This document shows positions 26,615-28,432 of a stretch of DNA of 64,000 nucleotides, piece by piece. How positions within the stretch are numbered: the first letter of the stretch is position 1; every line of letters starts with the position of its first letter. A program made the translations under genes and the position numbers. Below the pieces are notes generated by a model. That model was given only the letters and a program-made list of their open reading frames with translations. It ran no database searches and was not told the DNA's origin. This DNA comes from Acidobacteriota bacterium. Lineage in GTDB: Bacteria > Actinomycetota > Acidimicrobiia > Spongiisociales > UBA5794. The stretch is from the NCBI GenBank assembly GCA_022562055.1, contig JADFQA010000008.1:1-64000 (forward strand). The letters run 5' to 3'.

Positions 26615-26811
26615 GTTGTTCCCTCACTTGCTGGCGGTTTTGCCCAACCCTAGGCGATTTGCCCGTCCGTTTCTTGTAGACGATCCGCAGCCTGGTGCGA
26701 TCGCTGAGCGCACAACTTGACTTGCTGGTCGAACGCCGTTTGATCTGGGCGCCTTCTCACGGCCGCCTAACCCTTTCGGGAAGGCTAGGTGGACGCCCCA
26801 CAGGAACTCAA

Positions 26812-26890
26812 TGGGGATTCTATGGGAAATTTGGGGATAGGTGTTGACAAGTGGCGCGAAGTGGGGCAGAGTGGGAACTCGTGGAAATGA
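26812..26890 (+). promoter_or_regulatory. mraZ/dcw promoter with phased MraZ box array
   Basis: Four direct repeats GTGGCG, GTGGGG, GTGGGA and GTGGAA start at 26851, 26861, 26871 and 26881, exactly 10 bp apart, the spacing established for MraZ operators. Three more TGGGA-type units start at 26812, 26823 and 26832 on a near 10-bp phase upstream. TTGACA at 26844-26849 is a good -35, and CAGAGT at 26867-26872 is a weak -10 inside the boxes, so MraZ binding would block the promoter and autoregulate the whole cluster. Confidence 0.8.
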
Positions 26891-26911
26891 AGACAGTGGA
26901 GACCGTTAACT

Positions 26912-27346
26912 GTGTTTCTCGGTGAGTACAAACATGCTTTGGACGAAAAAGGTCGTCTGGTCATGCCGCGCAAGTACCGAGATCTCCTCAGGGACGGATG
27001 TGTGGTGACCAAGGGTCAGGACAATTGTCTGTTCGTTTTTGCCATGGAACGTTGGGTCGATGAGGTCGCCCGTGTCTCGGCATTGCCTCGAACGGATCGA
27101 AAGTCACGGAACTTCCGCCGGGCGTTTTTCGCAAATGCCTCCGACCAGACACTTGATAGTCAGGGCAGGATGCAGGTCCCAGAGACCCTTCGCAAGTACG
27201 CCAACCTTTCCAAGGATGTCACGATCGTCGGTGTTGCCGACTACATCGAGCTATGGGCGACCGACGACTGGCAGGCAGCGTCAGCCCAAGCGGACGATAT
27301 CTACTCAGACATCGACGATGCGCTCGGCGCAATGGAGGGTATCTGA
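26912..27346 (+). CDS. mraZ: MraZ transcriptional regulator
   Basis: A 144-residue DNA-binding protein that forms ring-shaped oligomers and represses its own dcw promoter. It contains two SpoVT/AbrB-like halves, each with the D-x-K/Q-G-R motif: 'DEKGRLVMP' (residues 11-19) and 'DSQGRMQVPE' in the middle. The GTG start is preceded by GGAG. First gene of the division and cell wall cluster, directly downstream of its presumed operator array. Confidence 0.93.
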   Translation: MFLGEYKHALDEKGRLVMPRKYRDLLRDGCVVTKGQDNCLFVFAMERWVDEVARVSALPRTDRKSRNFRRAFFANASDQTLDSQGRMQVPETLRKYANLSKDVTIVGVADYIELWATDDWQAASAQADDIYSDIDDALGAMEGI

Positions 27347-27402
27347 TGTGGATTACAGATCGCGCCAACACCAACCGGCAACCGTTTCTTGTGAGTTCCG
27401 GC

Positions 27403-27491
27403 CCATGGTCAGCTCCTCGGAAGTCAATAGGAAGGCCCCTTACTCCGCCCGCTTTCACATTGACACCAGCGCTCCGAGGAGCTGACCATGG
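27403..27491 (+). ncRNA. Leader hairpin sequestering the rsmH ribosome-binding site
   Basis: CCATGGTCAGCTCCTCGGA (27403-27421) is the exact reverse complement of 27473-27491, giving a perfect 19-bp stem around a 51-nt loop. The 3' arm contains the whole rsmH start region: GAGGAG (27476-27481), 6-nt spacer and ATG (27488-27490). Inside the loop, GTCAAT (27423-27428) can also pair with ATTGAC (27459-27464). The folded RNA should block rsmH initiation. Candidate cis-regulatory 'mraW RNA motifs' have been described upstream of this gene in actinobacteria; whether this belongs to that class is untested. Confidence 0.6.
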
Positions 27492-28432
27492 ATCGAGAAC
27501 GAAACCAGACGGCCTATCACGAGCCGGTGATGCTTGGAGAGGTCGTGGACCTCTTTCGGACAGTGCCACCGGGCTGGATCGTAGATGCGACACACGGCGG
27601 CGGCGGGCATACGCGGGCGCTTCTCGCGGCGGTGCCCGAGATCAGCGTCCTGGCCGTCGACCGCGACCCAGACGCGGCAGCACAGGTCCTGGCCGACCCT
27701 CGGCTGCTCTTTGTTCAGGGGAACTTCGAAGCGCTCCAAGACCTGATAGCTCGAACGCTTTCAGGAAAGGAAACTCAACATGACATCAGCGGTATTTTCT
27801 TCGACCTCGGGGTCTCGTCGCATCAGCTCGACATCGCCGAGCGTGGCTTCTCCTATCACTCGAGGGGTCCTCTCGACATGCGAATGGGTCCGGACGCTTC
27901 CATCACTGCCAGCGACGTCGTCAATGACTACGGAGTCGACGATCTTGCGAGGATCTTTCGTCGCTTCGGTGAGGAACGGTTCGCACGCAGGATCGCTGCT
28001 GCGATCGTCGCTGCCCGGCCGATCAGCGACACGGCGACGCTCGCCACGGTGGTTGCCGAAGCCGTCCCCGCTGCTGCCCGCCGAGGGAAGCACCCCGCGC
28101 GTCGGGTCTTTCAGGCGCTCCGTATTGAGGTCAACGCCGAGCTTGAAGCCATCGAAACGGCGTTGGATGCCGCGCTCGCGTCGGTCAGCAAGGGGGGCCG
28201 TGTCGTCGTGATTGCATACCACTCCCTTGAGGACCGCATAGTGAAACGCAGGTTCGCTACGGCTGTCGAGGGTTGTACGTGTCCTCCCGAAATTGCGGTG
28301 TGCGTGTGTGGAAAGGTGCCCAGTTTCGCAAAGGTTACGCGCAAACCGTTGCGCCCATCCTCCCAAGAAATCGACAGAAATCCGAGATCCCGAAGCGCCG
28401 TGATGCGGGCCGTCGAAAGGATTGTTCCGTGA
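27488..28432 (+). CDS. rsmH: 16S rRNA m4C1402 methyltransferase
   Basis: A 314-residue SAM-dependent enzyme that N4-methylates C1402 of 16S rRNA at the decoding centre. N-terminal 'YHEPVMLGEVV' and the SAM motif 'VDATHGGGGHTRALL' are family hallmarks. Also present are 'FFDLGVSSHQLD', 'GFSYHSRGPLDMRM' and 'VIAYHSLEDRIVK', and a cysteine cluster near the C-terminus ('CTCPPEIAVCVCG'). Its ATG and Shine-Dalgarno lie inside the leader inverted repeat. The stop overlaps the next gene's GTG. Confidence 0.93.
   Translation: MDRERNQTAYHEPVMLGEVVDLFRTVPPGWIVDATHGGGGHTRALLAAVPEISVLAVDRDPDAAAQVLADPRLLFVQGNFEALQDLIARTLSGKETQHDISGIFFDLGVSSHQLDIAERGFSYHSRGPLDMRMGPDASITASDVVNDYGVDDLARIFRRFGEERFARRIAAAIVAARPISDTATLATVVAEAVPAAARRGKHPARRVFQALRIEVNAELEAIETALDAALASVSKGGRVVVIAYHSLEDRIVKRRFATAVEGCTCPPEIAVCVCGKVPSFAKVTRKPLRPSSQEIDRNPRSRSAVMRAVERIVP

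Follow-up and report, generated by a model that had tools for sequence, protein, structure and literature searches.

In the 64,000-nt stretch of DNA that we analyzed (the window), mraZ ends at position 27346 and rsmH begins with an ATG at 27488. Both genes were identified with curated models (TIGR00242 for mraZ and TIGR00006 for rsmH), with scores above the cutoffs. The initial annotation of this region had described a 141-nt gap between the two genes and, within it, a perfect 19-bp inverted repeat whose right arm contains the GAGGAG and the ATG of rsmH. All of this holds: the gap is 141 nt, 27403–27421 and 27473–27491 are complementary at 19 of 19 positions with 51 nt between them, and both GAGGAG (27476–27481) and the ATG (27488–27490) lie in the right arm. 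The secondary pairing of GTCAAT with ATTGAC that had been suggested inside the loop is also present (27423–27428 with 27459–27464), and it turned out to be a conserved and covarying helix. The parts of the leader, with the basis for each, are:

27347–27487, + strand: rsmH leader (the mraZ-rsmH intergenic region) with the structured RNA, 141 nt
27395–27401, + strand: outer extension of the helix, 5' strand; pairs with 27493–27500, with a bulged A at 27496 (fold)
27403–27421, + strand: 5' arm, which is the anti-Shine-Dalgarno and anti-start arm (complementarity and covariation)
27423–27428, + strand: inner helix P3, 5' strand, GTCAAT (fold and covariation)
27430–27434, + strand: apical stem P4, 5' strand, GGAAG (fold and covariation)
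27435–27451, + strand: apical loop, GCCCCUUACUCCGCCCG, near-invariant (alignments of relatives)
27445–27450, + strand: loop core CCGCCC, the same as 16S rRNA 1399–1404 in E. coli numbering (comparison to 16S)
27448, + strand: equivalent of C1402, the RsmH target, inside the CCGCCC core
27452–27456, + strand: apical stem P4, 3' strand, CUUUC (fold and covariation)
27459–27464, + strand: inner helix P3, 3' strand, AUUGAC (fold and covariation)
27465–27472, + strand: unpaired 3' segment, ACCAGCGC (alignment of relatives)
27473–27491, + strand: 3' arm, with GAGGAG and the rsmH ATG
27488–28432, + strand: rsmH, encoding the 16S rRNA C1402 N4-methyltransferase; the regulated gene, whose product is the proposed ligand (TIGR00006, 297 bits, cutoff 154)

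The helix is longer than the 19 bp first noted. In the fold of the window's sequence, a 1-nt mismatch is followed by seven further pairs outward, and the Shine-Dalgarno sequence, the AUG, and codons 2–4 of rsmH all lie within one duplex. The register of this outer extension (alignment columns 10–16 with 108–114) covaries in relatives. The RNA has a predicted folding energy of -69.9 kcal/mol, versus -44.5 ± 4.2 in shuffled sequences (z = -6.1); none of 200 shuffles reached this value. There is a single exact copy of the arm sequence in the genome, at the rsmH leader.

We did not find an intrinsic terminator (a stem followed by a T run) on the sense strand within 26700–27700, and after a scan of the region we rejected both a terminator and a promoter in the rsmH leader. 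Upstream of mraZ, at 26846–26890, direct repeats of the GTGG type recur at a spacing of ~10 nt (GTGGCGCGAAGTGGGGCAGAGTGGGAACTCGTGGAAA), a pattern that fits the expectation for MraZ operator boxes.

Covariation and distribution of the hairpin

We used two alignments of rsmH leaders. The first contains 42 leaders; it is gap-free across the whole element and was not fitted to a covariance model. The second contains 89 distinct leaders from across the class (the best row per source), and because it was fitted to the model, it leans towards the structure. Among the 42 leaders, 95.6% of the cells at paired positions are standard pairs, and 17 pairs changed on both sides (81 cells, versus 21 in shuffles; 0 of 500 shuffles reached 81). 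If the partner is slid by 1–3 columns, then pairing falls to 34–50%. In the alignment of 89 leaders, double changes are seen in 30 of the 36 pairs (337 cells, versus 91 ± 9 in shuffles).

The arm with the Shine-Dalgarno sequence varies: it has GAGGAG in the window's genus and GAGGGG, GGGGGG, or GGGAGG elsewhere. The left arm tracks each of these changes, and nearly all relatives with a gap between mraZ and rsmH retain it. (Loss of the left arm in close relatives, or a lack of covariation, had been named beforehand as the outcome that would count against the hairpin.) These compensatory changes in both arms imply that pairing with the start site is under selection.

Two perfectly matched inverted arms that flank 51 bp could also be a DNA-level element, such as an invertible switch or an operator palindrome. 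However, the loop has a single orientation in the 59 RsmH-anchored loci that contain the element (see below), and it is conserved throughout the class even though the two arms change together. Also, the non-Watson-Crick cells are mostly G·U rather than A·C (119 versus 26), which points to the sense RNA and not to a DNA palindrome. A DNA-level element is extremely improbable, and given the single orientation and the bias towards G·U, we consider it refuted as the main explanation.

Because part of the 89 leaders were first picked for containing TACTCCGCCCGC, the unbiased figures are those from 80 loci that were gathered by RsmH protein similarity alone. To all of these we applied the same criterion: CCGCCC within a stem of at least 13 pairs, at most 240 nt upstream of rsmH. 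This was found, in the sense orientation, in 59 of the 80 loci. The other 21 comprise 12 loci from other phyla (Clostridia, Chloroflexi, and unclassified records), 8 Ilumatobacteraceae-like loci, and one locus (L024) whose stem is slightly broken. In nearly all members of the class that have an intergenic gap, the hairpin is directly 5' of rsmH.

The covariance model, which we built from the 42 leaders, matches 197 of 296 Acidimicrobiia genomes and 132 of the 209 good ones among them, with filters that drop weak matches. When we searched 396 genomes from across the phylum, we found matches in 14 genomes of Acidimicrobiia and just one match outside, which is palindromic and looks like a chance match. 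We also read 40 rsmH leaders from other classes of the phylum and did not find the element in any of them. The element is confined to the class Acidimicrobiia, where it is also found in members with genomes of ~1 Mb and 37% GC. The rsmH leader hairpin is almost certainly a real and conserved regulatory RNA.

The Ilumatobacteraceae-like loci (L034, L035, L039, L047, L049, L059, L062, and L064) have no hairpin, and their rsmH overlaps or abuts mraZ, which suggests translational coupling in place of the leader. In four distant members of the class (L197, L202, L203, and L254), the hairpin lies ~50–120 nt before the annotated-like start of rsmH and buries another ATG; in L197, this ATG begins an ORF of 15 codons that terminates at a TGA overlapping the ATG of rsmH. 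Several of L053, L054, L073, L202, L203, and L254 have an additional hairpin, containing the motif GGGAGA(C/A)AUCC, inserted 3' of the apical stem, which is absent from the window.

Probable burial of the start site and the cost of opening it

As in other leaders that sequester a ribosome-binding site, the Shine-Dalgarno sequence and the start codon lie in a helix that is kept by compensatory change, and the leader very probably acts by burying the start site of rsmH. In the window, opening the region from the Shine-Dalgarno sequence to the AUG is predicted to cost 31.4 kcal/mol (the median across the 42 leaders is 34), as compared to ~9 kcal/mol without the left arm and 7 kcal/mol for the start of mraZ. 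With a cost of ~31 kcal/mol, the full-length mRNA should be off, and the stem would be expected to affect the translation of rsmH and also the genes behind it. Ribosomes that translate mraZ terminate 57 nt upstream of the left arm and would not melt the stem. Given its stability, the stem would need to be opened actively, whether by removal of the left arm (via processing or a 5' end within the loop), by an unwinding factor, or by a translating ribosome.

One potential source of a translating ribosome is a leader peptide. A 26-codon ORF (MVSSSEVNRKAPYSARFHIDTSAPRS, followed by a stop codon) runs through the hairpin at 27405–27485, and its translation might melt the stem and couple to the translation of rsmH. 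Within the window's family, the frame has no internal stop and terminates at a TGA 2 nt upstream of the ATG of rsmH, but the start codon varies (ATG, GTG, ACG, GCG, ATT, or ATC), and several members of the family have no in-frame start. In other families, the frame has stops 4–5 codons after the loop or 4–8 codons before it, or else it enters rsmH. Furthermore, the ATG in the left arm lacks a Shine-Dalgarno sequence and is itself paired in the stem, and the conservation of the loop extends to third codon positions. Coupling via a leader peptide seems unlikely; since the start codon varies and other families break the frame, we rejected a leader peptide or uORF attenuator as the general explanation.

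Another possibility is that the hairpin mainly determines how stable the mRNA is or where processing separates mraZ from rsmH, for instance via cleavage of the 26-bp stem by an RNase III-type enzyme, and that control of initiation is a by-product. A duplex of such length suffices for double-strand RNases, and the messages for mraZ and rsmH would separate at this point. However, the 3' arm covers the Shine-Dalgarno sequence, the AUG, and codons 2–4 in nearly all members, a cut in the stem would cost rsmH its ribosome-binding site, and it is not the duplex alone but also the loop that is conserved. We consider a processing boundary to be improbable.

The apical loop and the target site of RsmH

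The most informative part of the element is the near-invariant loop, which the initial annotation overlooked. Its consensus is CCCyNACUCCGCCCR, and it is the most conserved single-stranded part. Across the 42 family members, 15 of the 17 loop columns are invariant, and the other two columns differ in one or two members. The 89 leaders have 21 types of loop, every one of which contains CCGCCC; the bases before it vary (UUAC, UGAC, GGAAA, UAC, AAU, or GAAC), and the base after it is G or A. The loop is an island of G+C even where the genome is AT-rich (CACCCUUACUCCGCCCAA). An exception is L197, whose loop has CCACCC. The unpaired 3' segment (CCAGCGC) is conserved in the nearer families only and not in distant members of the class.

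CCGCCC is identical to nucleotides 1399–1404 of 16S rRNA, around C1402, and the 16S of this organism contains it a single time, at the site of RsmH. We take the position of C1402 within CCGCCC from the standard numbering of 16S, which we checked against the genome's own 16S. To our knowledge, C1402 is the only RNA target of RsmH. The usual loop, ACUCCGCCCG, matches nucleotides 1396–1405 of 16S (ACACCGCCCG) at 9 of 10 positions. In the window, 9 matches of this quality (9/10 to ACACCGCCCG) are expected per 128 kb, which corresponds to a probability of ~6e-4 per 17-nt loop, before allowing for the free choice of the comparison frame; we noticed the match post hoc, after we had seen the loop, and a fair figure is nearer 1 in 200. 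Also, 0.6–0.9% of the window's 14-mers have an equally long match (7 nt) to the RsmH site, and the same leader has a longer chance match (9 nt) to another place in 16S. The ACU just 5' of CCGCCC and the CCCC further 5' are conserved as well, and similarity to 16S explains these only partly. As in leaders that mimic rRNA, the conserved nucleotides correspond to the site of the gene's own product in rRNA, but this match is short and the probability of a chance match is not negligible. Together, the 16S match and the identity of the gene suggest a good lead, not proof.

We also examined 24 leaders of rsmI, which encodes the other methylase that acts on C1402. The element is absent from all of them, which fits with feedback in cis by RsmH. 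Since 4 of the 24 do contain CCGCCC at some position within 210 nt, we count only the constant location of this motif in the loop as evidence.

Based on the loop's sequence and on analogies to known systems, RsmH may be the ligand of this leader, via mimicry of 16S, and may control its own synthesis; we give this a little under an even chance. While the 5' arm is paired, the long helix would prevent initiation by locking up the Shine-Dalgarno sequence together with the AUG and the initial codons of rsmH. The CCGCCC in the loop at the tip (mostly within ACUCCGCCCG) would be a single-stranded copy of the substrate, 16S 1396–1405. RsmH that is free of immature 30S subunits would bind this decoy in its own mRNA, and the bound enzyme would keep, stabilize, or protect the closed and untranslated state. 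Unmethylated pre-30S particles would compete for RsmH, which would free the loop, and the freed stem would then be opened by processing, by unwinding, or by a 5' end newly formed within the loop. Opening is the weakest link: such a strong stem should close without a ligand, and simple repression by RsmH fails to explain how the gene is ever on. How the stem opens and in which direction RsmH would act are both inferred. The fuller proposal, which is class-wide feedback on a housekeeping enzyme by means of a decoy that copies the enzyme's rRNA substrate in the mRNA leader, with RsmH recognizing the leader and perhaps methylating position 27448 (m4C), strikes us as plausible rather than probable. 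A point against RsmH as the ligand is that METTL15, its human homolog, binds RNA in vitro without sequence specificity and is recruited by RBFA (PMC10828496).

Alternatively, the hairpin could sequester the ribosome-binding site while its loop is read by a factor other than RsmH (a protein, an endonuclease, or a small ligand), with the stem opened by unwinding or by processing of the loop, and the similarity to 16S would be a coincidence. The structure and the covariation are equally strong evidence for this reading, the same active opening would be needed (31 kcal/mol, falling to 9 if the left arm is removed), and the C-rich loop (CCCyNACUCCGCCC) might suit C-binding proteins or Rho. On the other hand, the loop core is the site of the enzyme that is encoded directly downstream, and among the model matches that we examined, the element is found before rsmH only, with no other gene having such a leader that would suggest a general factor. 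A reader other than RsmH is a substantial possibility, but we would not call it likely.

If RsmH does regulate its own leader, then the output of rsmH would be linked to the pool of unfinished small subunits, and the maturation of the ribosome would be tied to how strongly the division cluster is expressed. In this cluster for division and the cell wall, rsmH is the second gene, and it occurs almost universally. Autoregulation by mimicry of rRNA would then also apply to a core enzyme of rRNA modification, beyond the ribosomal proteins and the resistance methylases.

Comparison with known RNAs

The mraW RNA motif (RF01746) is a long hairpin upstream of mraW/rsmH in Actinomycetota and is presumed to be cis-regulatory (Weinberg et al. 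2010, PMC2864571). The present element is also a long hairpin upstream of mraW/rsmH in Actinomycetota. We know of no ligand that has been reported for the mraW RNA since 2010. The initial annotation suspected that its structure might differ from the mraW motif, and the loop, the range, the position, and both covariance models bear this out. The loop of RF01746 is CACUUCCCC(GG), without CCGCCC, while the window's loop is GCCCCUUACUCCGCCCG. In the members of RF01746 that we read, the hairpin lies tens of nucleotides before rsmH, while the present element lies on the start site. RF01746 is found in Actinomycetales (it matches 9 of 149 genomes from the phylum, none of them in Acidimicrobiia), in contrast to the range of the present element. 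The search with the Rfam model for mraW, which had been recommended, gave no match in the window at the gathering score (50 bits), no match up to E = 10 in 27340–27520, and no match in 8 distant relatives at E = 0.1. Conversely, our covariance model did not match the RF01746 loci. We rejected homology with RF01746 based on the loop, the position, the range, and these reciprocal models. Across Rfam 15, we found no matching family: the only matches were to eukaryotic miRNAs and viral families, far below the cutoffs, and were due to the long stem.

The loop of the mraW RNA, ACUUCCCC (in L117, L276, and other members of RF01746), is somewhat like ACUCCGCCC (AC-U-pyrimidines). ACUUCCCC does not occur in this organism's 16S. 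The likeness may reflect a distant relation to RF01746.

According to the summary in PMC2791848, which cites Kojic 1996 and Vajic 2004, the G1405 methylases Sgm and KgmB are subject to negative autoregulation at translation. They have in common with our proposal for RsmH that they are actinobacterial methylases of the decoding site of 16S with negative translational autoregulation. However, sgm and kgmB are resistance genes and their target is G1405, which abuts CCGCCC, instead of C1402, and regulation via the rsmH leader is a proposal from sequence. Work on sgm reportedly proposed a CCGCCC shared by the sgm mRNA and 16S as the regulatory site. We know of no class-wide conserved hairpin for Sgm or KgmB.

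Leaders of ribosomal protein genes that mimic rRNA (L20, S15, S4, and others; PMC7247131) are the same kind of device. In contrast to these, the product here is a modification enzyme, the likeness is in a short loop sequence and not in the fold, and the binding is putative. The msiK motif (PMC2864571) is another long actinobacterial hairpin, with the ribosome-binding site in its 3' base and proposed feedback by the encoded protein, but it differs from the present element in gene, sequence, and structure. The present element is a second and unrelated-looking RNA for rsmH, in another class, and its loop points to a specific candidate for the ligand, namely the encoded enzyme. The element should be classified as a new cis-regulatory RNA of the class Acidimicrobiia rather than as mraW RNA.
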